A stretch of 20,222 nt of DNA, taken from a virus. Made by a program: the position numbers and the translations under genes. The stretch lies in IMG/VR virus record IMGVR_UViG_3300037042_002114, positions 1-20,222 of that record; one strand, given 5' to 3'. Positions within the stretch are counted from its first letter, which is position 1. Each line of letters begins with the position of its first letter. The notes beneath the pieces were generated by a model. It worked only from the letters and a program-made list of their open reading frames with translations. It was not told where the DNA came from and made no database searches. Positions 748-14,046 of the stretch are shown here, one piece after another.

Positions 748-1929
748 TCAGCGTCCTAACGACTTCAAGACACTCGCAACGAAGTCCTCGCTCTTGGCAG
801 CATTCGTGTTAGCCGGTCGTGAGCCGCCGCCACCCGTTGCCTTAGACGTAACTCCCGGCTCGCTGCCACGATACTTCGCCAGTTCGGCTTGCAGGCGTTT
901 GTTCACCTCGACCTGAGAATAGAGAAGCTCGCGGTATTTAGGCGCGGCAGCGGCCCAAAGAGCGGCCTTTGCGAGGTCTTCTTCGCTGTTCTCGCCATTG
1001 AAGATCTGCTGCGCGAGACTCAGACGCTGGTTCAGCTCGCCGTTCCATTCCTCATCACCTTCACGCGGTTCGAAGATTTCAAGCGCGCGAGCATTCTCGC
1101 TCACCTTCTGCCAAGTCTTGGTGGCCGACTCCAATGCGGCCTTCGTACCCTGCTCGTTGTCCTGCTGGTACTTGGAGATGATGGCGTCGTAATCAGCCTT
1201 AGCCTCGGAAATCTCGGACGCCTTCTCGCCGTTAATCTCGTCGTACTTGACTATCAACGCGCCGAGCTTGGCTTTCTTGGACGGGGAAAGACCTTCGACA
1301 ATGTCGTCGATCTGCGAGTTGCGATAATCGCTTTCGGGCGACTTGAGTAGGCCAACGAGCCTCTCGCCATCGGTTCCGACAAGGCTCTTCACGGAATCAA
1401 AGACGCCATTGATCTTGCCTTCGTACTTCTTGACGAACTCGGGGTGACGCTCGACATCAAGGATGCGGACACGCTCAGAAAGCGCATCACGCTCCTGCTG
1501 CAATGTCTTAAGCTGCTCCTCGAAGTTGGGGTTGGTGGTCTTTCCAGACTTCAGCTCCTCAAGCTGCTTGGCCAGTGCAGCCTTCTCTTCCTTGATCTTG
1601 CGGAATGCGTCAGCGGCCTTAGTGGACTTGATCGTCTCGGGGATATCGGAATCAGCGTCCGTAGAAGTCGGAGTTTCGGCCTGCTGCTTCTTGGTGCCGA
1701 ACATCCGCTCGATGTCCATCTCGGCTTTCGTCATCTTATCGTTAGACTTCGTCTGAGGCTTCTGCTTCGTCGCCTTTGGCTCTTCCGTAATCTGCGAGGC
1801 AGAATTGGCCGACTCGTCAGCCAACGCGGCGTCATCAATGCCGCTCGCTTTGAAAGCGTCGATAAACGAGCTGCCAAAGTCGGGAGTTTTTCCGTTGTTA
1901 ACGAGAGGTGAGTTCAGTTGTTCTTCCAT
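748..1929 (-). CDS. scaffold-like head assembly protein
   Basis: A 393-residue, acidic, Lys/Glu/Ala-rich and mostly helical protein. It has a disordered polar N-terminus (residues 1-60), strong coiled-coil potential around residues 108-160 (Leu, Glu, Lys and Gln at heptad-like spacing) and further helices to about 360. A Gly-rich linker then leads to a short amphipathic C-terminal helix (EDFVASVLKSLGR). Long helical proteins with a small C-terminal capsid-binding helix are typical of phage scaffolding proteins, which template the procapsid. The position in the same operon as portal and terminase supports this. It is the last gene before the terminator, and no capsid gene follows it, which is unusual. 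It could instead be another coiled-coil virion protein. No clear SD precedes the ATG. Confidence 0.6.
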   Translation of the reverse strand: MEEQLNSPLVNNGKTPDFGSSFIDAFKASGIDDAALADESANSASQITEEPKATKQKPQTKSNDKMTKAEMDIERMFGTKKQQAETPTSTDADSDIPETIKSTKAADAFRKIKEEKAALAKQLEELKSGKTTNPNFEEQLKTLQQERDALSERVRILDVERHPEFVKKYEGKINGVFDSVKSLVGTDGERLVGLLKSPESDYRNSQIDDIVEGLSPSKKAKLGALIVKYDEINGEKASEISEAKADYDAIISKYQQDNEQGTKAALESATKTWQKVSENARALEIFEPREGDEEWNGELNQRLSLAQQIFNGENSEEDLAKAALWAAAAPKYRELLYSQVEVNKRLQAELAKYRGSEPGVTSKATGGGGSRPANTNAAKSEDFVASVLKSLGR

Positions 1930-1935
1930 AATCTA

Positions 1936-2259
1936 TTAGTATTGCTTATCGAATGTTGCTTCTGGTTCTTTCGCTGTTTCAGTTACTGCCAATTTACGAA
2001 GGTTTTCAAGACAATGCGCGTAGCCAGCGGTTACACCGGCCGCGAAAATAATGTCCGATTCCTTGCTTCCATGCGATGGCATCGGCACCGGCATGGATTC
2101 AGCGACGATGCGTAATGCCATGCGTAGGACTGGCATGTTTAGGATCTGCGCTAGTTCAGCCTGTTGGCCATCAGTCTGCCAATCGGACAGATTGATGTCA
2201 GGCAACTCCAGCAGGTTCTTCGGATTCTCCTTCTTCAAGCCTCTTAGCCAGTTGATCAT
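1936..2259 (-). CDS. small conserved phage protein of unknown function
   Basis: A 107-residue protein. The N-terminal basic segment (MINWLRGLKKENPKN) is followed by a motif of the form DWQTDGQQAELAQILNMPVLRMALRIVAE. A short Pro-rich stretch (SMPVPMPSH) comes next, then GVTAGYAHCLENLRKL near the C-terminus. I recall small phage proteins with this plan (a segment ending in a hydrophobic helix, then a G-x-H-CL-xLR helix) near portal and capsid genes, but I know no function. It starts inside the 3' end of the GH130-like gene (62-bp out-of-frame overlap) and ends 6 bp before the scaffold start, so it is transcribed with the head operon. An internal ATG at residue 42 is a possible later start. Confidence 0.6.
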   Translation of the reverse strand: MINWLRGLKKENPKNLLELPDINLSDWQTDGQQAELAQILNMPVLRMALRIVAESMPVPMPSHGSKESDIIFAAGVTAGYAHCLENLRKLAVTETAKEPEATFDKQY

Positions 2260-3541
2260 ACTTTGTTTTCTTGTTTCGTTTCAGTTTATGCCTCGGCGGA
2301 ATTGGGTCGAGAATATCGTCCAGCTTAATCGGTTTTTCTGGCGTGACGACATCGCGATTCGGTCGGATGACCTTGGTAATTTCAAGCATGTCGCCCAGCG
2401 GCAGCTTGATGTAGCCGCAATCAACGTCGTTGATGCCGTAAGAGACGACGAATTGATTCTTCGCGGCGTCGTAGAATGAGCCGCACGGAAAGACGACCGC
2501 CGGAAGCCCCGGCCACCAGTCTTGCTGATTGGTTCCAGTCAGGATCGGCAGCGTCGTCATGCGGACGATGCGAAACGGAGGCTTTGCTTCGAATGCGTAC
2601 GCTCCCATGTAGTACCGACGCTTCTTGTTTATCCACGGCAGAGAGCTGTGGAAGAAAGTCCAGTAAAGGCCATCGACCAGAATGGGGTTGGAGCCGCCAC
2701 GAACCTCGCCGAATTTCCAGAGCGGGTTGAACTCGTCGGTAATGTATTTCGTTTCGCTCTCAAGACGCCCATTAAGGCGTACAACGACATGAGGGTTGGC
2801 CGAATACACCAGATGTGGCGCGTTGTCGTGCGTGAAATACAGCCAGTTCTTCTCATGGCCATCGTTCACCATCGCTTGAGCCAAATTGTTTCCGTAGATC
2901 GGATCGAATCTGGCCACGTTTGAAAACTGGCCATCAAGCAGGAACATCGCCTGATGCGCGTATGATTTTAGAGGAATGTAAGAGCAGCAGCTCAGTCCGT
3001 ATTTGTCGCCGAACTTCAGCACGCGCGGGTCTTCGAATTGTTCGTTCGGATAGCTCGAATTGAGCTGAATAAGAGCCTTTTTTGTGGCGCGCAAATCGTT
3101 GTTCAGTTCGAAAACGGCGATGTCATTCTTCTCGATGTAGACATCATCGTCCTTCTCGCGCTTGTTCCGGCAGCGTCGGGCAAAGAGCAGGATCTTTCCG
3201 TCAGGTTCTTGGATGATTGCTGGATTGAAGTAGTACGTCCCAACTTCTTTCGGAAGTCCAATCTTGCCGACCTCCCAGTCCACTTGTTCCGCCAGAATTG
3301 GAACATCGTTTTGTGCATAACTCATAAGAAATTCAGCGGCAAATTTGACCTCATCGTATTGAGCGAGCCAGTAGTCGCGTTCCTCGCGGACTTCGGTCAG
3401 ATGCTCTTCGTGTTCTTTCGTCCGTATTTCGATTGTCTTGCGAAGATCCTCGATCTGCATGAGAAGATCCGCTTGGCCATCTCCTCCGTTAGCAAATCGC
3501 TTGAGAGCCTTGAGTGAAAGACTGCGGATTATGTCTTTCAT
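2198..3541 (-). CDS. GH130-like five-bladed beta-propeller protein with N-terminal coiled coil
   Basis: The ATG at 3541 gives 447 residues, 2 bp after the GT25 stop. An upstream in-frame ATG at 3601 would overlap GT25 by 58 bp and is less likely. Residues 24-66 are a charged coiled coil. From about residue 100 the protein resembles the GH130/GH43-type propeller: FNPAII (105-110), DGKILLFARR (114-123), FEDPRV (169-174), EKNWLYF (230-236), RGGSNPILVDG (281-291) and YYMGAYAF (310-317). GH130 enzymes are mannoside phosphorylases or hydrolases, and the ED-P-R region holds the acid Asp in the members I know. A charged tail follows residue 395. The neighbouring glycosyltransferase and methyltransferase support a role in glycan handling. 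Activity is unproven: the protein could be a sugar-binding propeller or a virion-attached enzyme. Confidence 0.62.
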   Translation of the reverse strand: MKDIIRSLSLKALKRFANGGDGQADLLMQIEDLRKTIEIRTKEHEEHLTEVREERDYWLAQYDEVKFAAEFLMSYAQNDVPILAEQVDWEVGKIGLPKEVGTYYFNPAIIQEPDGKILLFARRCRNKREKDDDVYIEKNDIAVFELNNDLRATKKALIQLNSSYPNEQFEDPRVLKFGDKYGLSCCSYIPLKSYAHQAMFLLDGQFSNVARFDPIYGNNLAQAMVNDGHEKNWLYFTHDNAPHLVYSANPHVVVRLNGRLESETKYITDEFNPLWKFGEVRGGSNPILVDGLYWTFFHSSLPWINKKRRYYMGAYAFEAKPPFRIVRMTTLPILTGTNQQDWWPGLPAVVFPCGSFYDAAKNQFVVSYGINDVDCGYIKLPLGDMLEITKVIRPNRDVVTPEKPIKLDDILDPIPPRHKLKRNKKTKYDQLAKRLEEGESEEPAGVA

Positions 3542-3543
3542 TT

Positions 3544-4146
3544 TCAGTCTGAAAGGTGGGTTCCATCTTGGTCTACGACCCGTGGAAAAATCGTAAAGCA
3601 ATTCAGGAGATGGCGATTATTGAGGTACATCTGAATGTCCACCTTGCCATAAAATTGCTCGTTGGTAGACACCAGTGTTTCCAAGGCTTTTTTTCTTACA
3701 ACGTAGCAATGAGTGCAAAAAGGCATCCCTTCAAAAAGGTTCGGTCCAATTTGATTTTTGATTTTGTCGGCAGCACAGCATGAGCCTAGATAAAGAATGT
3801 CCCAGTCATCCGGCATGCATGAGATGGCAGATTCAAGAGCATGTTTCCAATTTGGCCTAAAAATGGCATCGTCTTCGACTACCATGAACATGTCTTCTGT
3901 CGAATTCTCGAACAGCAGAGAGTTCCAAAGTATCCAGTGGGAAACGGTGCATCCCAAGTGTTCGGGCGGAATCAGATAGCCAGATCCTGGCGCATCGTAT
4001 TCATACGGAATGACGGTTCTTAAGCCGGACTTTTTTCCGTTTATTCCATAGAAAATGCGGTAGTCTGAGATTCCCGCTGAATTGAGGCTGTTTTGAATAA
4101 ACTGGATGCGCGAAGAGCCGCGCATCGTGAGAACAACCGTTTGCAT
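3544..4146 (-). CDS. glycosyltransferase family 25 (LPS-type)
   Basis: A 200-residue protein with the GT25 hallmarks: an N-terminal beta strand TVVLTMRGS and a second strand IFYGINGK (31-38). Then come LGCTVSHWILW (64-74), the acidic nucleotide-sugar/metal motif MVVEDDA (88-94), DDWDILYLG (113-121) and THCYVVRKKAL (145-155). GT25 enzymes transfer galactose, glucose or related sugars, classically onto lipooligosaccharide. It starts 4 bp after the methyltransferase stop and is followed 2 bp later by the GH130-like gene, forming a tight three-gene cassette. Sample lines near its 3' end are about 40-48% G+C by my count, against 53-62% in sampled portal lines, which is consistent with acquisition. 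Acceptor and sugar cannot be read from sequence: virion protein, host LPS or phage DNA are all formally possible. Confidence 0.8.
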   Translation of the reverse strand: MQTVVLTMRGSSRIQFIQNSLNSAGISDYRIFYGINGKKSGLRTVIPYEYDAPGSGYLIPPEHLGCTVSHWILWNSLLFENSTEDMFMVVEDDAIFRPNWKHALESAISCMPDDWDILYLGSCCAADKIKNQIGPNLFEGMPFCTHCYVVRKKALETLVSTNEQFYGKVDIQMYLNNRHLLNCFTIFPRVVDQDGTHLSD

Positions 4147-4150
4147 TCAA

Positions 4151-4768
4151 TTATTTGAGTTTTCGATAGATGGCGAAGCAGCTCTCGTTCAGATCGAAAC
4201 GCGCAATAAATTCGCACCGCTTGAGGACGAACTTCAGCGCAGTCTGCGTCGATTCCCAATTCACATCATCCATGACGATGTAACCCCCAACCTTGAGCTT
4301 TGGAAGCCAGTTGACGACATCACTCGTAGACGGCCATTCGGCATGATTGGCGTCGATGTGAACCATGTCTACATCAGGAAGGAGTCGCGAAGCATCCCAA
4401 GATGACATGCGGCAGAACTGAATATGACGAACAACCTCCGCTCGGACACAGTGGCGTACAAAAGCCTCGTAATGGCCGTCCAAATCGATTTTTGACCACC
4501 ATTCCTGATTGGTTGCGTTTTCATCGTCGATGCAGTCCTCTTTCTTCCAAGAGTCGATAGCATAGACGATTCCGCTTCCGTTCAGCTTGCAGGCTTGCGC
4601 GAGAGCGAGCGTTGACTTGCCCTCGAAGACGCCAACTTCAGCGATACGCTGCGGTTTGGTTTCGAGAACAAGTTTGGCAAGTTCAAAACCTTTTTTCGGA
4701 TCGCACCAACCGCCCATCTTCGGGAAGTTGTCTGCGATGAATTGAACGATGTTTTCTTCGTTTCCCAT
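4151..4768 (-). CDS. class I SAM-dependent methyltransferase (Methyltransf_24 type)
   Basis: A 205-residue protein with a Rossmann-type SAM-binding glycine motif RIAEVGVFEGKSTLALA (41-57). A strand with an acidic end, IVYAIDSW (67-74), follows, then MVHIDANH (135-142) and the late strand GGYIVMDDVNW (161-171). Together these match the Methyltransf_24 group, often found beside glycosyltransferases and thought to methylate small molecules or sugars. HIDANH is the typical catalytic or metal-side motif of that group. It begins 5 bp after the portal stop, with an AGGGA Shine-Dalgarno-like sequence about 9 bases upstream of the ATG, and is followed 4 bp later by GT25. The position suggests it caps or modifies the same glycan as GT25. 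DNA methylation is unlikely because no NPPY- or PC-type motif is present. Confidence 0.8.
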   Translation of the reverse strand: MGNEENIVQFIADNFPKMGGWCDPKKGFELAKLVLETKPQRIAEVGVFEGKSTLALAQACKLNGSGIVYAIDSWKKEDCIDDENATNQEWWSKIDLDGHYEAFVRHCVRAEVVRHIQFCRMSSWDASRLLPDVDMVHIDANHAEWPSTSDVVNWLPKLKVGGYIVMDDVNWESTQTALKFVLKRCEFIARFDLNESCFAIYRKLK

Positions 4769-4773
4769 AATTT

Positions 4774-7023
4774 TTATCCCTGACGCGCCAAGTTGGACTC
4801 GGCAGTTGCATTCGCTCGCTGAATATCAGCAGTTGTCTTTGCATTCCGGCGTGACAGATCAGCCATCGCCTTCGTGTTTTGACGTTGAATGTTGGCCATA
4901 GTCTCGGCGTTCTGGCGAGCGATTTTCGATTGAACTTCAGCGTTGAGAACAGCGGTCTTCGGATCGACACCTTGCTGAATCGCCTGAGCCTGCTGCATCT
5001 GCATCTGAGCCTGCTGCTGTTCCTGAAGCATCTGCCCAAGCTGTTCAATCGTCTGACTAAGCATCTGAAGCTGCTGCGCGTACGCATCAACCTGAGGGCG
5101 ACGAGTAGGATCGGTGGACAATCGAGCCAGATGATCCTGAACGTGTTGACCAATGCCCTGAAGGAAGAGAACAATCTCCTGCGGATTGCCACCCTGCTGG
5201 AGCGATGCGGCAGCTTCGTTTGCAGCAGCCAGATGTGTGTCGATGTGAACGATTTGATTCTGTGTATCCGTGACGATTGCCATGTTTCCCTGGCGCAAGG
5301 ACGAATGCTCCAGAACAGCCAGCGCGGTCTGATCCTGAACTCGCGAAGATTGGATCTGAGTCGGCAGATACCGATCCACCATTTGTTGGCCAACCTGAGC
5401 GGCGATGTAGTCGCGCAAGAGGCTGACTTTTCCACCCTCTGGCAGAGAACCAAGAAGTCCGAGCAGAGAACCAAGGAGCTGCTGCTTCGCGAACTGAGAA
5501 CCTTGGCCGACCGTGCGAGTCGCTTCAACGAAGTCGATGTCTAGCATGGCTTGAACCGGAACACCACGTTCCTTGCATCGACGCTGGAACTCAATCGCAT
5601 CCTTGTCCGACTTGGTAATCGGATTCAGGTTGGGATTGGAGGCTCGGTTGTACCGCTCTTCGAAGAAGGAATCGAGCTGGTTGTAATACCGACTGAGCTG
5701 CGTCTTACCGATTGCTGACTGCTGCGCCACGATGGCTTGGATTTCAGTCGCGGTTCGTGGGTTGCCAGCCGGTTTGTTGAGCGATTGGCGATACTGAGAG
5801 AGGTTGCCTTGAAGAACATTCTCAAGGTCCGCGTTGACCGCCATAGGAGCGTCCAGAACGCCAGCAATGTTCTGCTGAATGACTTCGTAGTCTGGCGGTA
5901 GAATGGCATACGGTCCTTGCTGAACGACACTGGTCTTGCTGAGAGCGTTCGGGTTGAGGGGGCGGAAGAGAATCTGCGTACGAGCGAATGCGCTGTCCAC
6001 CATCGAGCAGCGGAGCCGGTTCTTCAGCTCCATCGCCTGAAGCATCTTGATGCCAAGACCCTTCACACCGTGATGCTCGCCGTCGCCACGGTCGTAATAC
6101 ATCGGATGAATGATCTGCTCCCACCGTTTGTAACGGCGCAGCTTCCGGTACATGAAGTTCTCGCTGTCCCGCTCATCGATGATGGCATGGCTGATCTGAC
6201 CATCGAACTCCTTGTAGAAGATGTGCGACATCAGCACGACCTCTGACCGCGCGCTGAAGGTGATGTCGTTCGAGCGGAGCTGGCGTTGGAAGAACTCCCA
6301 ATCGTACTGAACACCGGAGCGATACGGCTCAGGCATCGCAGCGCGGATACGCTGGCGAACGTAGTCCACGTTCCAACCAGCAGCAGTTGCAGCTTCCTCG
6401 TCCTGAATCTTCTCGAACAGATCATCGACGCCCATGCGAGTGCGGACGCAGGCCACCTTCCAGTCGCTGACGTTGGACTTGGTGCCGTCGGGGACGAGAA
6501 GGTCCGTCGCCATGATGGCCTTGCATCGCCAGTTAGAACCGTCTTCGAAGATTAGCGGACCATCACCAATGAGGACCATCTCACGCTGCGAGAGCTGCAT
6601 GATGTAGTCGAAGTCCTTATCCATCTTCTGAAGACGGTCGAACTCCTCGGTAATAATCTTCGACCATTCCTCCCGCTTATCCATGTCGTTGCCGTAAGCG
6701 GTACGAATGTTGGCGTAGGTGGGAACCTCGGCGAACACATCGTAAAAGGCAGACATGGCCAACGTGAGAAACGCTTCCGACTCGCGGAAGTTGACGTTGG
6801 TGCGGAACGCTTGGTTGTTTCGACGAAGCTCGGCAGGGTTATACGGAGGATTTCCATCGACCAGACCACGGAGCTTTGCGCGGGTACTGTTCCGCAGCTC
6901 GTCGGCCATGATGAGCTTTTGGAATATTTCGCGAGCCGATGCCGCGTCGGCAATACGAGTTTCGGGAGCTTTACCCTCCTCGTTAATGGTTTCGAGCGGC
7001 AGTTGTGCTAGGTTTCCGTACAT
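4774..7023 (-). CDS. portal protein, podovirus type with long C-terminal helical barrel
   Basis: A 749-residue protein. Size and layout fit the P22-like portal group: an N-terminal helical region (25-60), a PPYNPAELR..NQAFRTNVNFRESEA segment (59-84) that begins the wing, and a GDGPLIFED strand near 153-161. The DYEVIQQNIAGVLDAPMAV and RQSLNKPAGNPRTATEIQA segments correspond to the stem and tunnel region. The last ~100 residues are Gln-rich and end in regular 11-residue repeats (see separate entry). Portals form the dodecameric vertex through which DNA is packaged by terminase and later ejected. It overlaps the preceding zinc-ribbon gene by 16 bp and precedes the methyltransferase. No functional annotation other than portal fits a protein of this size next to terminase. 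Confidence 0.85.
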   Translation of the reverse strand: MYGNLAQLPLETINEEGKAPETRIADAASAREIFQKLIMADELRNSTRAKLRGLVDGNPPYNPAELRRNNQAFRTNVNFRESEAFLTLAMSAFYDVFAEVPTYANIRTAYGNDMDKREEWSKIITEEFDRLQKMDKDFDYIMQLSQREMVLIGDGPLIFEDGSNWRCKAIMATDLLVPDGTKSNVSDWKVACVRTRMGVDDLFEKIQDEEAATAAGWNVDYVRQRIRAAMPEPYRSGVQYDWEFFQRQLRSNDITFSARSEVVLMSHIFYKEFDGQISHAIIDERDSENFMYRKLRRYKRWEQIIHPMYYDRGDGEHHGVKGLGIKMLQAMELKNRLRCSMVDSAFARTQILFRPLNPNALSKTSVVQQGPYAILPPDYEVIQQNIAGVLDAPMAVNADLENVLQGNLSQYRQSLNKPAGNPRTATEIQAIVAQQSAIGKTQLSRYYNQLDSFFEERYNRASNPNLNPITKSDKDAIEFQRRCKERGVPVQAMLDIDFVEATRTVGQGSQFAKQQLLGSLLGLLGSLPEGGKVSLLRDYIAAQVGQQMVDRYLPTQIQSSRVQDQTALAVLEHSSLRQGNMAIVTDTQNQIVHIDTHLAAANEAAASLQQGGNPQEIVLFLQGIGQHVQDHLARLSTDPTRRPQVDAYAQQLQMLSQTIEQLGQMLQEQQQAQMQMQQAQAIQQGVDPKTAVLNAEVQSKIARQNAETMANIQRQNTKAMADLSRRNAKTTADIQRANATAESNLARQG
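4777..4929 (-). repeat. eleven-residue (33-nt) repeat at the portal C-terminus
   Basis: Residues 699-749 of the portal consist of four full and one partial 11-residue units with the pattern [AS]-x-[IL]-x-R-x-N and four variable positions. Ile/Leu at position 3 and Arg at position 5 are present in all five units; Asn at position 7 is present in the four full units. An 11-residue period is the hendecad repeat of near-straight or right-handed coiled coils, which suits the long barrel of helices seen above the crown in P22-like portals. Confidence 0.75.
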
Positions 7024-7643
7024 GGTCGTTTTTTCCAGCAGTGAGCTGGTAAGTTTTCGTTCTCTGTAGCGTCCGTGAAGCGGTGAAGTGTTTCAATGGG
7101 AAACCACACCATGCTCCTGATAAAGCAACCACAAAATTCACAGCTCTGAACCTGCTCGTCATACGGCGTGTTGCCGTGCTGAGAGAAGGTTTTTACGGCT
7201 TCTTTGAGGACGCGAGCGTTGCATCCAGTGCATCCGAGTGGCTTTCGGTTGAAACGGCATCCAGAGCAAATGCTTGCGCGCCGGTTCGCCTCCGTCTGAT
7301 CGACTTTTCCGCCGCCAACGGTCAGTCCATGAAGCAAACTCATGCTGAACTTGATGACATCCCCGATCTGGAGCGACTTTCGACCTGCTGGCTTGGGAAT
7401 TTCAACTTCGTCGTAAGCGCAGTCCGCACCGTTTTTGCAGATAAATTCCAACATCAAAACGTCAAGATTTGACGGGAGGTTGATGGCATTTGATTTGTAG
7501 TGATTACGGACGAACTCATGGAGCTGCGGCCATGAACCTGCCGTAACCTCGATTCCAGTTTCTGGAACTCGATAGAACCATCCGCCAGGAAGGCCAAGAT
7601 GATCGTTTAACAGCTTGTATCCGGTGTTTGATCCGTATGTCAT
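7008..7643 (-). CDS. cysteine-rich zinc-ribbon-like phage protein between terminase and portal
   Basis: A 211-residue protein with 11 cysteines. Three CxxC pairs are clear: ICSGC (126-129), GCTGC (138-141) and SCEFCGC (168-173). A late HCW at 201-203 completes a pattern CxxC...CxxC...CxxCGC...CW that I recall from small zinc-ribbon segments in phage proteins. The N-terminal half contains GLPGGWFYRVPETGIEV and SWPQLHEFVRNHY, then MLEFICKNGADC. It overlaps the terminase stop by 4 bp (ATGA) and the portal start by 16 bp, so its product is likely made in step with terminase and portal. I do not recognise a named function. A structural zinc protein, a DNA-binding partner of the packaging motor or an unusual small terminase-like factor can be imagined but not shown. 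Confidence 0.72.
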   Translation of the reverse strand: MTYGSNTGYKLLNDHLGLPGGWFYRVPETGIEVTAGSWPQLHEFVRNHYKSNAINLPSNLDVLMLEFICKNGADCAYDEVEIPKPAGRKSLQIGDVIKFSMSLLHGLTVGGGKVDQTEANRRASICSGCRFNRKPLGCTGCNARVLKEAVKTFSQHGNTPYDEQVQSCEFCGCFIRSMVWFPIETLHRFTDATENENLPAHCWKKRPCTET

Positions 7644-9319
7644 AAATCGTCGTAATAGATTGAATCAGCGTCTTTAACGAGCTTTTCCCAGACTTTGTCC
7701 ATCTTGGTTGCTCGCGGTTCGAGGACAGCAGTTTTGCGGACCAGATCAAGCAAGACTGTAGCTGCGTCGGCTAAGTCAGGCGATTTGCCGGTTCGCTGCT
7801 TCATCACGGTCTTCGATTCGACGGATATCTTCCGCTTGGAATCGTCGAACATGCGCGCGCAGAACTCTTGCAGCGTCTCGATGTCCATTCCGCCGACCCG
7901 CTCCTCGACAACCCATTTACGCATGGAGAACCAGAGTTCCGTCACCTTGCGGTCATAAGCCTCATTGCATGGCCTACTATCCTCGTCGCTGACCGGAATG
8001 GTCGATGGAGAGCCGCCAAACTCAACGCGATGAACAACGCCCCATTCACGCGTCAGAATGTCCGCAAGACCGCCACCTTCACCGCTTGAATCGAGAGCGA
8101 ACTTGTCGGGCGACACGCCCCGTTTGCTGCACTCCTCTTTGACGCGATTGGCTATCTGGTAGTGAACAGGCTCGGTTAGCTGTGCATTTGGAGATATCTG
8201 AACCACATCGCCAAAAAGTATGCTAATTTTATCGTTAGCGGTGCCAACCTTGGCAAAGCGAAGAACGCATCTGTCGCCGCCAAAGCCTGGGTCAAGACCG
8301 GCTACCGACTGAATATTCGTAGTAAACACCAACTTTCTTGTAGGTGTGTGCGTCTCGATGAGCGATTCGGACAATACCGTCTTGACCATGCCGTCAGGAC
8401 TCCAGAATCCGCGCGTGTACTTCCAGAACGTAGGACTCTGCTCACCCTCATGGCGCATCGCCGACAAGACCTGATCGTGAGTGATAAGGTATGGGTACTT
8501 CGTTCGCCCTTCGCTGATGTTCGGCGACTTCATGCCATCGAAACGTCGGCACATGCCGCGTTCCGTCAGCCAATGCTGGTCCTCAATCGTAACGCTTCGC
8601 CATCCCTTTGCAGGAGTGCAGAATCGGCCGTGCGGATCGTACTTCGATGCCGGATTCCCGATGACCAGCATCTTGAACTCGCGGCAACCCTTGGAAAGGT
8701 TCGTACACGCTTCGAACGCCGCTTCAGGCGTATCCGTTGCTTCGTCGATGATGACCATCACCCGCTCAGCGTGAATACCCTGAATGTTGGCCACCGCCTT
8801 CGAGGTGTTACCTTCTGCGACGGCGATAGCTGAAATCGAATGGCGGTCGTCACCTTTGACAGCTTGCAACGCCATCTTCGAATCGACCATGTTGCCGGGG
8901 AATCCGCGCGATTTCCGAACAAGATCCTGAAGATTGGCCCACATACGCTTTCGGATCATCTTCGCGGTCGTGGATGTCAGGACGACGGTCGTCTTGGTAG
9001 GGTTGGCTAGCCACCAGACTGTCGCGAAAAGCGTTGCGCCAAAGGTCTTTCCACTCGCGCCGCATCCAGCCCATCCAACGTAGTCATGTTCGCAAAGGCT
9101 TTCGACTTGAGCTTCAAGCCACGGATTCCAGCTCAGCTTTGGCCATAGCATTTTCGTCGCATTCCGAAAATGTTCGAAGGTGCCAAGTCCGCCCTCGTTT
9201 GGCTGGAGTCGGTTTCGGAAAGCGTACAGCTCCAACTCCAAGTCAGGAATTTTGACGGGAGAACGAATCCCGTACTTGTGGTTTATGAGCGGTTGCTCTT
9301 GGATGTTTTGTTCTTGCAC
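7640..9319 (-). CDS. terL: terminase large subunit (ATPase and nuclease)
   Basis: A 559-residue protein. Walker A is GCGASGKT (85-92) and Walker B is VMVIIDEA (187-194), with D192 and the catalytic E193. The coupling motif region is LVIGNPAS (218-225). The RNase H-like nuclease part shows the expected acidic residues in AGLDPGFGGDR (D343), FALDSSGEGG (D410) and SPDLADAA (D515 and D518). Terminase pumps DNA into the procapsid through the portal and cuts the concatemer. The start is GTG at 9319: an in-frame TGA lies 18 bases upstream, and a later ATG (residue 58) would remove the conserved FEHFRNATKMLW region. The gene opens the minus-strand head operon and overlaps the next gene by ATGA. No small terminase gene is visible upstream; the divergent tail operon begins there. 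Confidence 0.93.
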   Translation of the reverse strand: MQEQNIQEQPLINHKYGIRSPVKIPDLELELYAFRNRLQPNEGGLGTFEHFRNATKMLWPKLSWNPWLEAQVESLCEHDYVGWAGCGASGKTFGATLFATVWWLANPTKTTVVLTSTTAKMIRKRMWANLQDLVRKSRGFPGNMVDSKMALQAVKGDDRHSISAIAVAEGNTSKAVANIQGIHAERVMVIIDEATDTPEAAFEACTNLSKGCREFKMLVIGNPASKYDPHGRFCTPAKGWRSVTIEDQHWLTERGMCRRFDGMKSPNISEGRTKYPYLITHDQVLSAMRHEGEQSPTFWKYTRGFWSPDGMVKTVLSESLIETHTPTRKLVFTTNIQSVAGLDPGFGGDRCVLRFAKVGTANDKISILFGDVVQISPNAQLTEPVHYQIANRVKEECSKRGVSPDKFALDSSGEGGGLADILTREWGVVHRVEFGGSPSTIPVSDEDSRPCNEAYDRKVTELWFSMRKWVVEERVGGMDIETLQEFCARMFDDSKRKISVESKTVMKQRTGKSPDLADAATVLLDLVRKTAVLEPRATKMDKVWEKLVKDADSIYYDDL

Positions 9320-9353
9320 AAAAACTTGATGGATTCAGAGTTTTAACACGGTT
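9320..9353. promoter_or_regulatory. divergent 34-bp gap between head and tail operons
   Basis: Only 34 bp separate the GTG start of terminase (-) from the ATG of the first tail gene (+). Both large late operons point away from this spot, so promoters must lie here or inside the 5' ends of the two genes. The gap is A/T-rich but I see no convincing sigma70-type -35/-10 pair in either direction, and no strong Shine-Dalgarno for either gene. It is listed because of its position; the element itself is not identified. Confidence 0.3.
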
Positions 9354-9779
9354 ATGCCAGCGCAACCCTACTTCGGATCTTCCTGTTCATCGCCATGCGC
9401 GACAGCGGCAACCGACTGCCAACCTTCCGGTGATAATTGCGCCGTAATTGGCGTGATGACCATCAAAATTGGCGAGGAGTACACGGTTTCGTTGTTTATT
9501 CCTGCAAATCCTCCGATTTCTTGGACTGGAATTGTTGGGTATTCCCAGATTCGAGATTCTTCAGGGGTGCTGCTTTACGATTTCGGAACCATTTCAGGCG
9601 CAATCGACGGAAGTGGAAACGCCACGATCCTGTTTATCGCTCCCGGTTCGGCGACGGCAAATTGGGCCGCTGGAACCTACTACGTTGATTTTTCGTTCGA
9701 AGTTGTCGGCACGTTTGGTCCGAAAACGACCGGAACCTACAAACTCATCGTCTGTGACGGAATCACAGTCGCGCCATGA
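9354..9779 (+). CDS. Ig-like or beta-sandwich tail protein with Cys-rich N-terminus
   Basis: A 141-residue protein. The first 30 residues hold four cysteines (11, 15, 22, 29) in a Ser/Ala/Thr-rich context. From about residue 35 the sequence is beta-rich (TIKIGEEYTVSLFIP, WTGIVGYSQIRDSSG, GTYYVDFSFEV, TGTYKLIVCDG). This layout resembles the Ig-like N-terminal module of BppU-type baseplate or upper-fibre proteins that anchor fibres. It is the first gene of the plus-strand tail operon and overlaps the next gene by ATGA. An adsorption-apparatus role is inferred from fold type and position. An internal ATG at residue 35 would give a protein without the Cys-rich segment; the longer start is kept because both frames are intact and no SD distinguishes them. 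Confidence 0.6.
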   Translation: MPAQPYFGSSCSSPCATAATDCQPSGDNCAVIGVMTIKIGEEYTVSLFIPANPPISWTGIVGYSQIRDSSGVLLYDFGTISGAIDGSGNATILFIAPGSATANWAAGTYYVDFSFEVVGTFGPKTTGTYKLIVCDGITVAP

Positions 9780-10126
9780 GCAGCTACGACATTTCAATTC
9801 AATTTGACGGGGCTGGAGTCGTTTCGACGATTTCCCAGAACGAGTTGGATTACACGCTCAACCTCGTAAATGTCGTCTATTCAACTGCCCCAATTTCGAG
9901 CATCGGGCTTTCAGGCGGAAGCACTGGATTGACCGTGGCCAACTCCCCGTTGACATCAAACGGCACAATGACCATCGGAGGAACTCTTGCCGTTGCAAGC
10001 GGGGGTACTGGAGCGATTACAGCCGATTCCGCTCGGTCGAATCTTGTCGCTCAAAAAACCATAACAAGCGGAACCCCTTCGCCATCTGGCGGATCTGACG
10101 GGGATATTTACCTTCAATACACATAA
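9776..10126 (+). CDS. short tail-fibre-like protein
   Basis: A 116-residue protein, Ser/Thr/Gly-rich with a beta-type composition. It contains SSIGLSGGSTGLTVANSPLT, then GTMTIGGTLAVASGGTGAITADSARSNL. The GGTGA..A..AR.NL segment is a common tail-fibre motif. The C-terminus SGTPSPSGGSDGDIYLQY is also a frequent short fibre ending (a G-D-I-Y-L-Q/R-Y strand). It is too short for a complete receptor-binding fibre, so it may be a small fibre subunit or connector. It is coupled to the previous gene (ATGA) and followed after 3 bp by the long fibre gene. No recognisable SD. Confidence 0.6.
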   Translation: MSSYDISIQFDGAGVVSTISQNELDYTLNLVNVVYSTAPISSIGLSGGSTGLTVANSPLTSNGTMTIGGTLAVASGGTGAITADSARSNLVAQKTITSGTPSPSGGSDGDIYLQYT

Positions 10127-10129
10127 TCT

Positions 10130-12694
10130 ATGGCAGACAACGTAGGATACACACCTGGAGCCGGAGCTACGGTAGCCGCCGACGAAATCGCAGGAGTCCT
10201 GCATCAGCGCGTTAAGATTGGCATTGGAACCGACGGCTCTGCTACCGATGTCTCGTCAAGCAACCCCATGCCGGTTACGGGAACCGTTACGGCGAACACA
10301 GGCTTGAGTCAGCCCCTGACTGACGCTCAGCTTCGTGCTGCCGCCGTTCCGGTTAGCGGCACCTTTTTTCAGGCCACCCAGCCAGTTAGCATCGCTGCGT
10401 CTGTTCCTGTTACAGGTCCGGCTACAGATGCTCAACTGCGAGCGACTCCGCTTCCCATTTCTGGAACCGTAACCGCCAACACTGGACTTAGCCAGCCGCT
10501 TACCGACGCGCAACTCCGCGCATCGGCCGTTCCCGTTAGTGGTCCGCTCACCGATACTCAACTTCGCGCCACTGCGATTCAAATCCAAGGTACTGTCAGC
10601 GGAACAGCCGTTCCGGTCAGTGGCACGTTTTTTCAAGCCACACAACCGGTGAGCATTGCTGCATCGGTTGCCGTGACTGGGCCTTTGACGGACGCTCAGC
10701 TTCGCGCGGCTGATGTTCCGGTAACCGGAACGGTAACCGCCAACACTCCGTCAACCGGTGCTATCGGTTTCCCAGTCCTTGCTCAGGCGACTCAAGTTGG
10801 CGGAAGCGACGGCACAAATCTCCGAATTCTTAAGACCGATTCAAGCGGGGAGCTTCAGGTTGACGTTGTTTCCAGCGCACTGCCGACCGGTGCGGCAACA
10901 GAAACCACCCTTGCGGCCGTCGAAGTAGACACCTCGGCCATTGCGACATCGACCTCCGGTATCAACAACAAACTCGCCGCGCTATCGACCCGAGTTCTCG
11001 ACAACGAAGCATCCGGTTCGCCCGTCCGCGCAATCGGTCAGGAAATCTGGAACGTATCGTTCAGTGAGGTTGGTGCATCGGTAATCTCGCCACAGCTTCA
11101 AACCCCAACAACAGGCACAGGTGTTTCCTACTCTCAAGCATCCGGTGCGCTGGCTATCGTTGCAGGAACCACAACCAACGCTGAGTTCTTCACCCGCTCG
11201 ACAACGTCATGGCGCGCAGCAATGCGCCTCAAGTTCTCGATTGTTGCGTCACAGCGCATTGCCAACACCAACTTGGCCGTCATGTTGGCAGACCTGATTG
11301 GTGAAGGTCTGACTATCACAATCAACTCAGCGACGAGCATCACCGTTGCTCAGTCGGGTCATGCGTTCACTTCAACGAGCGTCGGTCAATTTGTCCAAGT
11401 TGGTCGAATCGTCGGTGCCGCTGGTGTTCCCGGTCGTTACGCCATCGCATCAGTGGTTGCCGGTGTTTCGTACAATCTGACCGTTGCTGGCTGGCCGGCG
11501 TCAGGTAGCTGCACTGCAACGATCTTTGGGCATTCGTATGTCCGAAATCTTGTCACCGGAACAACGGCGACAAACATCAGCGTTGATGCCCAGCGGCGCG
11601 GATGGGCGCAGGGCGACACTACCGCAACGATCAACACGACGGCATCTCCCGGTACGATCATCACTTGCGAACTGACTGGCCGCGAAGTGTTCTGGGCCGA
11701 TCAACTGCGAGCAACAACGACGACCCCAACCGTTGCCCTCCGAGCCAACCGCGTCGAAAACATCCCCGACGACAATCTGGATCTGTACCTGTTCGTTTGG
11801 TCGTTCAACGGCACGACCGCCCCAGCCTCATCGACGACATGGACGATGTCATTTTGTTCGATTGAGAAGTTCGCCAATATGCCCGTCTACATTCAGGGTA
11901 ATAGGGCGCAGGGAGCAATGAATCCGCTGCCGGTGACACAATCGGGAACGGTAACCGTCAGCGGTACTGTCACCAGCAACATTGGCACGGGTACGCTTGC
12001 GGCGGTTACGTCAGCCAACCTTGGCTTTCCCGGCATCATCGCGGACATTTCTTCGTCTGCAATAACGTCCTCCACCACTACATCAGCTTTCACCCCGACG
12101 TTCGGCACTTGCTACTCGGTCGGCATAGTTGTCACAGCAGTCACCGGAAGTTTTGCAACAATGGATGTTGCCATCGAGGAATCCGACGATTCCGGCACCA
12201 ACTGGTTCAAGGTCTACGACTTCCCGCGAATCACGTTAAGCGGAGCGTATCGTTCGCCAATCATGCGCCTGACCGGCAACCGTGTGCGGTACGTCCAAAC
12301 GCTTGGCGGCACTACACCTTCATTCACTCGTGCAATCAATCGACTGCAGGCCAGCACCAACAACGAGGCAGTGCGCCAGTTGATTGATCGAACCATTAAT
12401 ACCAACACGCTCAACAGCACGACGCCGAGCCTTGACACCCGCGATTGTGGAAACCGCGCTCAACTGGTCATCAACGTCGGCGCAATCACCACGACCGCAC
12501 CGGCTATCCAGATGGAAGGCAGCGACGACAACGGCGGTTCATGGTACAGCATCGGAACGCCTCTGACCGCTGTGGCCAGCTCTACCGTTCAACTGACCGT
12601 CACGGACATCAACGCTGCTTTGATGCGCGCTAGGGTCAGCACGGCCGGTGTAGGCGTTACGGCTGGGTATGTAATGATCAAGGCGCACGACTAA
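10130..12694 (+). CDS. long repeat-containing tail fibre or virion surface protein
   Basis: An 854-residue protein. Residues 1-46 contain AGATVAADEIAGVLHQRVKI, a common opening of phage structural proteins. Residues 47-205 are built from PVxG-TV/TFF, TANT and L-T-D-A-Q-L-R-A repeats (separate entry). Residues 230-290 may form a helix-containing linker (TGAATETTLAAVEVDTSAIATSTSGI..KLAAL). Residues about 300-600 are a large beta-rich domain beginning QEIWNVSFSEVG. The last 220 residues hold two similar beta-sandwich-like units, each with an E-x-SDD-x-G-x-x-W core. Composition (Thr/Ser/Ala/Gly-rich, few Cys) is typical of fibres. The protein probably contacts the host receptor or decorates the tail. 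It lies between fibre-like genes; specificity cannot be read. Confidence 0.7.
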   Translation: MADNVGYTPGAGATVAADEIAGVLHQRVKIGIGTDGSATDVSSSNPMPVTGTVTANTGLSQPLTDAQLRAAAVPVSGTFFQATQPVSIAASVPVTGPATDAQLRATPLPISGTVTANTGLSQPLTDAQLRASAVPVSGPLTDTQLRATAIQIQGTVSGTAVPVSGTFFQATQPVSIAASVAVTGPLTDAQLRAADVPVTGTVTANTPSTGAIGFPVLAQATQVGGSDGTNLRILKTDSSGELQVDVVSSALPTGAATETTLAAVEVDTSAIATSTSGINNKLAALSTRVLDNEASGSPVRAIGQEIWNVSFSEVGASVISPQLQTPTTGTGVSYSQASGALAIVAGTTTNAEFFTRSTTSWRAAMRLKFSIVASQRIANTNLAVMLADLIGEGLTITINSATSITVAQSGHAFTSTSVGQFVQVGRIVGAAGVPGRYAIASVVAGVSYNLTVAGWPASGSCTATIFGHSYVRNLVTGTTATNISVDAQRRGWAQGDTTATINTTASPGTIITCELTGREVFWADQLRATTTTPTVALRANRVENIPDDNLDLYLFVWSFNGTTAPASSTTWTMSFCSIEKFANMPVYIQGNRAQGAMNPLPVTQSGTVTVSGTVTSNIGTGTLAAVTSANLGFPGIIADISSSAITSSTTTSAFTPTFGTCYSVGIVVTAVTGSFATMDVAIEESDDSGTNWFKVYDFPRITLSGAYRSPIMRLTGNRVRYVQTLGGTTPSFTRAINRLQASTNNEAVRQLIDRTINTNTLNSTTPSLDTRDCGNRAQLVINVGAITTTAPAIQMEGSDDNGGSWYSIGTPLTAVASSTVQLTVTDINAALMRARVSTAGVGVTAGYVMIKAHD
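10268..10748 (+). repeat. imperfect protein-level repeats in the long fibre
   Basis: The region encodes five copies of an LTDAQLRA-type unit (one as ATDAQLRA, one as LTDTQLRA), each followed by a [VLI]P[VI]SG-like turn. It also has three SGTVTANT-type segments and two copies of VSGTFFQATQPVSIAAS (10352-10402 and 10616-10666). The two long copies are identical in protein but differ by synonymous changes in 11 of 17 codons by my comparison. These are coding repeats, not a CRISPR array. Confidence 0.85.
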
Positions 12695-12873: not shown

Positions 12874-14046
12874 ATGAGCTGCACAAACCCTGTCATCGTG
12901 AACATCCCAGGACCGCGCGGCGCGGCTGGTACGAACGGGACGAATGGGACGAATGGCGTAAATTCGTTCTCTGTAACGACTGCTTCATTCTTTGTGCCAG
13001 CCCTTGGCGCGAGCGTTGTCGTTCCGGTTTTGAACGCGTCGTTCTTGCCGGAGTCTGTTGCTGGCCAGTTTTTTGTTTCAGTTCAAGGTTGCGGATACCT
13101 GCAAGTTACCGATGTCACCGGATTAAACGTGACGTTGCAAAATCCGGCTGCTGGAGTCTTGAGCATCCCGAATGCTGTTCCGACTACGCTCATTCCATCA
13201 GGCTCGCTCGTTACGCTCGCTGGAGCGGTTGGTCCGCAAGGTCCGGCGGGTGCTGCCGGTGGCGCGTCGTCCGCTGGAACGTATATCGTACGCACTCCAG
13301 ATGTGTCGATTCCGAGTGCCACGGCTCTTGATTCCCTATCTGCTGGTTATCTTAAGACTCAAGGATCTGGCGGATCTGGTGCTGTTTCGACTATTGCTTC
13401 CGTTCCTGTAGGCGACATCAGCGGAGTTCTTCCGATTGCGAAAGGTGGAACGAATCTGTCCGCCATCCCAACCAATGGCCAACTTCTGATTGGTAATGGC
13501 TCTGGATTCACGCTGGCTCAACTTACCGCAGGATCGAACGTCACGATTACGCCGAGTGCTGGGGGAATTACCATCGCGGCAACGGCTCCTGCTTCGACGT
13601 TTAGCTATGTCACGTTTACGCGGAGGGTGACTGGAACCGGGGCATCCGCTCCGAATGTTGTTGGTCCTACGGCTGGTAGTAATCCGTACAGCACGTCTGT
13701 TTACACTGGGGCATCCTACGTTGGCCTTGATAGCGCATCAGGATTTACCGCTTCAAGCGGTCGATTTACAGTTCCATACACTGGGTACTACAGGATTGAC
13801 GCATATTTCAACCTTGTAGCAGACACAACTACAGCAAGCGTTAATGTTTACATTAGGAAAAACGGTTCAAATGTTTTAGCTTCAAAAGCATTTAACGTAA
13901 ACAGTTCTGGTTATCATCCGATTAGTTTAATGTATATTGATCAAGCATCTGCGGTTACCGATTATTATGAAATAATTGTTGGAACCACGCAGACGCTAAT
14001 TGTTGACAGCGGCTCCTCGTTCTCCGTTCAGCGGATTCAGGCTTAA
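12874..14046 (+). CDS. collagen-like tail fibre with C-terminal C1q-like domain
   Basis: A 390-residue protein with modules in order. Residues 13-30 hold six Gly-X-Y triplets (GPR, GAA, three GTN, GVN). Residues 31-116 are a beta module containing VAGQFFVSVQGCGYLQV and PTTLIPSGSLVTLAG, which I recall beside collagen-like repeats in phage and bacterial proteins. A second short collagen run is GAVGPQGPAGAA (117-128). A fibre motif GVLPIAKGGTNLSAIPTNGQ (184-203) follows, then a C1q/TNF-like beta-sandwich at about 245-388, with the signature GRFTVPYTGYYRIDAYF and a final FSVQRIQ. Trimeric collagen-like stalks with C1q-like heads are receptor-binding architectures. Part of the head (13801-13980) is strikingly A+T-rich. 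The preceding SD is strong. Confidence 0.75.
   Translation: MSCTNPVIVNIPGPRGAAGTNGTNGTNGVNSFSVTTASFFVPALGASVVVPVLNASFLPESVAGQFFVSVQGCGYLQVTDVTGLNVTLQNPAAGVLSIPNAVPTTLIPSGSLVTLAGAVGPQGPAGAAGGASSAGTYIVRTPDVSIPSATALDSLSAGYLKTQGSGGSGAVSTIASVPVGDISGVLPIAKGGTNLSAIPTNGQLLIGNGSGFTLAQLTAGSNVTITPSAGGITIAATAPASTFSYVTFTRRVTGTGASAPNVVGPTAGSNPYSTSVYTGASYVGLDSASGFTASSGRFTVPYTGYYRIDAYFNLVADTTTASVNVYIRKNGSNVLASKAFNVNSSGYHPISLMYIDQASAVTDYYEIIVGTTQTLIVDSGSSFSVQRIQA
12931..12957 (+). repeat. 9-nt tandem repeat encoding GTN collagen triplets
   Basis: Three near-perfect copies of ACGAAYGGG in a row encode Thr-Asn-Gly. Short in-frame tandem units of this sort can gain or lose copies by slippage and so change stalk length without a frameshift. 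Confidence 0.8.

Follow-up and report, generated by a model that had tools for sequence, protein, structure and literature searches.

Sugar-modifying genes exchanged around a constant GH130-family propeller gene between the portal and scaffold genes of an uncultured phage group

What do three sugar-modifying genes do in the middle of the head genes of a phage? The question is raised by a 20,222-base IMG/VR virus record (IMGVR_UViG_3300037042_002114; the whole stretch is referred to here as the window). Genes for a methyltransferase (MT-A, 4151..4768), a glycosyltransferase (GT25-A, 3544..4146) and a GH130-family propeller protein (2198..3541) lie there on the minus strand, between genes for a portal-like and a scaffold-like protein. 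A preliminary description, made from the sequence alone, had reported this order and a spacing of 2-5 bp, and had proposed that the set makes or trims a glycan. The open reading frame (ORF) coordinates agree, with gaps of 5 bp (portal to MT-A), 4 bp (MT-A to GT25-A) and 2 bp (GT25-A to propeller). The arrangement is not due to chance: wherever a close relative shows the interval, the triplet or a variant of it is there in the same position. Several sugar-modifying families occur in this one slot, with conserved active sites and under purifying selection, and thus the set very likely acts on a glycan, as first proposed. In the explanation that we favour, and to which we give an even chance, head proteins of the phage itself receive from the cassette a glycan that is variable and capped with methyl groups.

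The slot was compared across ~150 IMG/VR contigs, the searches having returned 141 related stretches by propeller and 159 by portal. The propeller gene lies between the transferase genes and a 107-aa pre-scaffold gene in 68/68 portal-anchored loci that reach the position (a further ten end before it). The transferases upstream of it are swapped. We identified at least ten arrangements, made up of four methyltransferases (MT-A, MT-B, MT-C and MT-D), three GT25 forms (GT25-A, GT25-B and GT25-C), a GT32-like enzyme (Gly_transf_sug) and a GT2-like enzyme. The commonest (MT-A, GT25-A, MT-C, GT25-B) accompanies 24 of 70 distinct portal sequences, the second commonest (GT32, MT-B, MT-A, GT25-A) 18, and the two-gene form of the window (MT-A, GT25-A) five, the window included. 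On a portal tree of these 70 phages the arrangement changes at least 28 times, compared with a least possible number of 9 and a shuffled mean of 40. Thus, arrangements are clustered but unstable. Loci L121 and L126 show a recent cassette swap: a stretch of 8,794 bp up to the portal stop codon is 99.58% identical between them, after which one has MT-A and GT25 and the other GT32, MT-B, MT-A and GT25. Their common MT-A stretch is only 77% identical, and identity returns to 92% from the propeller onwards.

This swapping of transferases around a fixed propeller is the new part of the finding; no relevant account of a glycan slot between portal and scaffold was found in a literature search limited to open-licence papers. 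The preliminary description had raised the prospect of an undescribed virion-glycosylation system. That part has to be narrowed, given that phage virion glycosylation has already been described in mycobacteriophages. The finding is more interesting than first stated because of the swapping, and less novel in kind.

The family assignments made from the sequence alone hold up in profile searches, as all three Pfam matches are above cut-off. MT-A (205 aa) is a Methyltransf_24-type S-adenosylmethionine-dependent enzyme (PF13578, E=3e-20, 73.4 bits against a curated cut-off of 26.3) with weaker matches to PF01596, CmcI and TylF. Its matches in the PDB are O-methyltransferases, and from these similarities it is likely to be a sugar O-methyltransferase. 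The ratio of nonsynonymous to synonymous substitution rates (dN/dS) is 0.04-0.09 for MT-A, similar to that of the portal gene (0.05-0.07), and indicates purifying selection. The same is true of the propeller gene (0.06-0.08).

GT25-A (200 aa) matches Glyco_transf_25 (PF01755, E=1e-11) at 45.5 bits, above the curated cut-off of 24. It is predicted from sequence and model to be a GT25 family glycosyltransferase that transfers sugar. Its EDD motif (metal/nucleotide) is invariant in 33/33 aligned GT25 copies, some of them only 27% identical to the copy in the window. The AlphaFold model has a GT-A fold and a predicted local distance difference test (pLDDT) score of 93.5. Top Foldseek matches of the model are GT25 structures, with Mimivirus R655 and human COLGALT1 nearest, a bacterial beta-1,4-galactosyltransferase (8xlz) next and a capsid glycosyltransferase of chlorovirus PBCV-1 lower down. 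These neighbours appear mainly to reflect the GT25 family and say nothing on the acceptor. The GT25 genes are far more divergent than those for the propeller, MT-A or portal, and synonymous divergence (dS) is at or near saturation.

The propeller (447 aa) is the constant member of the cassette. It matches Glyco_hydro_130 (PF04041, E=7e-10) at 38.8 bits (cut-off 26) over profile positions 21-319 of 320. We placed its start at the ATG at 3541 rather than at the listed TTG at 3601, because the TTG overlaps the GT25 gene and the MKDIIR start is kept in relatives. Searched against the PDB, a family-wide propeller profile gave significant matches to GH130-family proteins only (ten distinct sequences). 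In a sequence alignment, N106, R122, E170, D171 and D372 are invariant in 12/12 divergent propeller copies. They align with N74, R89, E141, D142 and D363 of BT3780, where D171 corresponds to the catalytic Asp and the others include the -1 subsite; according to PMC4599007, these BT3780 residues bind mannose or are needed for activity. Retention of acidic residues, on which the glycan reading had been staked at the outset, was found in both proteins (EDD in GT25; E170, D171 and D372 in the propeller).

Other positions set the propeller apart from characterized GH130 enzymes. At a position where six aligned GH130 enzymes of solved structure have a Lys or Arg, the window has E279 and other members of the family E, H, N or M; the His-Arg of three of these enzymes aligns with H238-D239. 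Both the D239 and E279 positions vary between lineages. This comparison of phosphate-binding positions was made by sequence alignment, and the available text of PMC4599007 does not name phosphate-binding residues. Because the basic residue of the aligned solved enzymes is Glu here and variable across the family, the propeller is, judged from the alignment, not a typical GH130 mannoside phosphorylase (GH130_1/2). In GH130_NC beta-mannosidases a pair of Glu residues acts as base (E227 and E268 in BT3780); by indirect comparison E279 could match one of them, although some lineages have another residue there. Scores against the NCBIfam GH130 equivalogs are far below cut-off (38.5 versus 550 bits and 37.7 versus 450 bits). 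From these sequence features the propeller may act as a hydrolase, as a GT108-like transferase or in sugar binding; GT108 is a transfer activity on the same fold as GH130 (PMC8950772). The likeness to GH130 mannoside phosphorylases and hydrolases and to GT108 consists of a near-full-length profile match with the catalytic Asp and -1 subsite residues kept (PMC4599007 and PMC8950772). The differences are the acidic or variable residue in place of the basic one, the scores far below the equivalog cut-offs, and the context of a phage head operon. In many copies, but not in all (L334 is without it), a helical, coiled-coil-like N-terminus precedes the propeller.

The same triplet had been expected in other phages, and it is present in related ones, including the distant L297. 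This locus carries the very triplet of the window in the same position, with TerL 75%, portal 71% and propeller 48% identical to those of the window. Deeper lineages were reached by scans with the L297 propeller and a portal alignment (portals ~35-50% identical). Where a propeller and a readable slot were found (L330/L332, L334, L335, L336, L340, L342, L368, L370, L413), a Methyltransf_24 protein and at least one glycosyltransferase were also present. In three of these a GT2-like gene and the portal gene are on opposite strands (L368:10244-11236, L370:10906-11820, L413:10913-11827). Propeller-less lineages with the whole interval visible had no Methyltransf_24 match to profiles built here, which a very divergent copy could escape. 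Most have a near-empty slot of about 285-500 bp. Other contents were seen as well. L355 (10232-11648), and also L356, L362 and L376, have a two-gene cassette (about 257 and 213 aa) that possibly encodes other glycosyltransferases; the L355 pair has no Pfam match. At L344:6070-9795 the place of the propeller cassette is taken by genes for two sulfotransferase-like proteins, an FkbM methyltransferase and a protein of 557 aa that matches nothing in Pfam.

How might these enzymes work together? The slot between the portal gene and the small pre-scaffold gene would be a glycan-making cassette expressed together with the head genes. Sugars would be added in the cytoplasm, most likely to a head or other virion protein from the same operon, by small, soluble glycosyltransferases of the GT-A type, one or two per cassette (GT25 in the window; GT32-like or GT2-like ones in relatives), and sugar O-methyltransferases would cap these sugars. 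The constant propeller would act on the same glycan, as a transferase or an editing hydrolase. Recombination would swap the transferases and keep the propeller, so that the glycan coat would differ from phage to phage. A single glycan as the common target of the enzymes, a virion protein as its acceptor, late expression and a benefit from variation are inferred here. A virion protein is favoured as acceptor because the genes are placed in the head operon, the enzymes are small and without matched membrane families, and 35 scanned proteins of the relative G001 included no flippase or base-hydroxylating enzyme.

By analogy with other viruses, location of the glycan on the virion is plausible. 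In the mycobacteriophages Che8 and Rita, capsid and tail proteins carry glycans with which glycosyltransferases of the phage have been connected (Freeman et al. 2023, as cited in PMC11256854 and PMC12619734). The likeness lies in phage-encoded glycosyltransferase genes, which in our case stand beside structural genes. In mycobacteriophage Maravista the glycosylation genes are near the 3' end of the genome (PMC11256854), whereas here they are between portal and scaffold. Neither a constant GH130 propeller nor swapped methyltransferases are described for the mycobacteriophage systems in PMC11256854 and PMC12619734. In chlorovirus PBCV-1, A064R (two glycosyltransferase domains and a methyltransferase domain, GT-GT-MT) builds capsid glycan, and with A061L provides a parallel in which two glycosyltransferases and methyltransferases build and methyl-cap the virus's own capsid glycan, and changes in these enzymes give antigenic variants (PMC9614988). 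However, this is an algal virus, A064R is a single fused three-domain protein and there is no propeller; the likeness is an analogy at most and implies no membership.

Several points weigh against a glycan on the head proteins. The position proposed for the catalytic base of the propeller is not conserved across the family, and the AlphaFold model of the propeller, built from a shallow alignment, has a pLDDT of 38 and was not used. The acceptor and the virion glycan are predicted for this phage from its genes, and late expression from gene order only. GT25 and Methyltransf_24 proteins also serve lipopolysaccharide (LPS) and O-antigen pathways. A putative virion protein whose short stalk resembles collagen (GXY and GTN repeats; 12874-14046; weak C1q, collagen and tail-fibre matches) was considered as the GT25 acceptor and rejected: GXY stalks also occur in lineages without the cassette, so co-occurrence gives no support.

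The main rival has the cassette enzymes working during infection, from the cytoplasmic side, on glycans of the host envelope (LPS core, O-antigen or capsule). This would block superinfection or the loss of progeny on debris, and variation would track the diversity of the host surface. We regard it as doubtful. GT25 takes its family name from LPS biosynthesis, and the structural neighbours of GT25-A include 8xlz; the weak similarity of the Methyltransf_24 protein to TylF and CmcI is to sugar methyltransferases; and rapid swapping would fit host surface variation. However, the genes form part of the head operon instead of standing outside it, and the nearest solved structures of GT25-A, Mimivirus R655 and COLGALT1, are not LPS enzymes, although this is mainly a family effect. 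In prophage Gtr seroconversion cassettes, a specific glycosyltransferase is swapped around constant genes, as in the phage slot, with use of a flippase (gtrA), a bactoprenol glycosyltransferase (gtrB) and a membrane gtr. The slot differs from these, and the envelope reading loses ground, in that neither the cassette nor 35 other scanned proteins of the relative G001 gave a match to a flippase, to a gtrA/gtrB-like family or to a membrane glycosyltransferase.

A bolder form of the virion reading makes the slot a dedicated site of capsid-glycan diversification in an undescribed phage family. The propeller, as a GT108-like transferase with the GH130 fold, would make the inner sugar, common to these phages, on a head protein. 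A variable outer part would come from the exchanged glycosyltransferase and methyltransferase genes, so that recombination alone would change the glycan of the particle. Taken as a whole, this is unlikely.

The propeller may instead be a non-enzyme with a sugar-binding or structural role (for example as a lectin-like component of the head, or as a scaffold for the exchanged transferases), which we consider improbable. It would suit the sole constant member of the cassette, the helical N-terminus present in many copies (L334 being without it) and the variation at the D239 and E279 positions. However, invariance of the BT3780 mannose-binding and catalytic positions in 12 copies is more than binding alone should need. 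These assessments are not mutually exclusive, as a lectin-like propeller is compatible with a target on either the virion or the envelope.

It is very improbable that the glycosyltransferases modify hypermodified bases of the phage DNA. Some phage glycosyltransferases do act on DNA (Pyle et al. 2024, as cited in PMC12619734), and the PHROG label on the GT25-A match is 'glucosyltransferase'. However, no hydroxymethylase or TET-like enzyme was found among the 35 scanned proteins of the 44.6-kb G001 (part of its genes), and the cassette is in the head operon, not among replication genes. To our knowledge, neither Methyltransf_24 nor a GH130 propeller is part of DNA glucosylation. Least probable of all is that the slot is a neutral insertion point for unrelated accessory genes (morons): near-empty slots in some lineages do make the genes dispensable at the family level, but assignable slot genes nearly all encode sugar-modifying enzymes (GT25, GT32, GT2, methyltransferases, sulfotransferases), purifying selection is as strong as on the portal, and the cassette is in every relative of the window's clade that shows the interval.

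Few cultured phages are known to have glycosylated virions, and what this serves outside an animal host is an open question. Here, close relatives differ sharply in sugar enzymes at one slot of the head operon while a GH130-family protein stays fixed. If the target is the virion, these phages provide a natural set of variants for testing the roles of phage glycans in adsorption, shielding and escape from recognition. The propeller also directs attention to a branch of the GH130 superfamily that is as yet unassigned and in which a new transferase or hydrolase may be found.

The head genes run from TerL to scaffold, all on the minus strand, and neighbours overlap or are separated by gaps of at most 6 bp. 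The terminase large subunit (TerL, 7640..9319) was identified by a PHROG_2 match (E=2e-22) and weak tblastn matches to phage terminases. Between it and the portal gene is a conserved Cys-rich protein of 211 aa (7008..7643), kept in relatives, with a weak match to a PHROG family of unknown function. The portal-like protein (749 aa, 4774..7023) follows TerL, is homologous across the phage family and forms the upstream border of the slot. The downstream border is the small head-operon gene (107 aa, 1936..2259), placed by its position before the scaffold gene. It has no Pfam match, and a gene of similar size precedes scaffold in divergent lineages too. The scaffold-like protein (393 aa, 748..1929) has a charged composition, and its homologue is followed by a gene resembling that for a major capsid protein (MCP) in L334 and L336. 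Neither the portal-like nor the scaffold-like protein has a significant Pfam or PHROG match; their names rest on position, composition and this MCP-like gene. In G001 the MCP-like gene (8711-9958) is on the strand opposite to scaffold, whereas in L334 and L336 it is on the same strand, after scaffold. Elsewhere in the window are an 854-aa protein with repeated PVSGTFFQATQPVSIAASV / TDAQLRA-type units (10130-12694) and, at 3-676, small ORFs that resemble a holin and a lipoprotein (possibly part of a spanin), as judged by eye.

The sequence comparisons place these phages in an uncultured group without a close cultured relative. In cultured phages there was no match for the cassette DNA or the portal, and for the propeller only a fragment of 26% identity, the one weak match in 50,697 phage records searched. 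The terminase is about 23-26% identical to those of cultured phages among the matches listed, and the MCP-like protein of G001 has no close cultured relative. Long contigs of the group are typically 41-48 kb, which suggests genomes of roughly 45 kb, and the 44.6-kb contig of G001 may be complete, as its first 40 bases are repeated near the end. No tRNA was found in the window or in three long contigs checked. A genome scan with the propeller gave one match, a 4.8-kb phage-like contig (L171) binned with an uncultured Nitrosomonadales metagenome-assembled genome. This is a weak hint of a host that rests on binning. Cellular relatives of the propeller were sought in 397 other genomes of the same phylum, with no match.

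Some contigs have features of their own. In the 92,531-bp contig G005 (L166-L170), two 1,161-bp copies that are 96% identical flank ~46 kb in which a second, distant phage is found, a structure that reflects either an insertion or a chimeric assembly. The second phage has its own TerL and portal, with the next long ORF 257 bp after the portal gene and no cassette match. In L332 (1016-2687) the terminase is encoded as two ORFs (155 and 371 aa) with a gap, due to a frameshift, an insertion or a sequencing error. A ThyX-like ORF in G001 (19368-21059; end of L160 and start of L161) is interrupted by an intein-like sequence, which was recognised by eye and not by profile.

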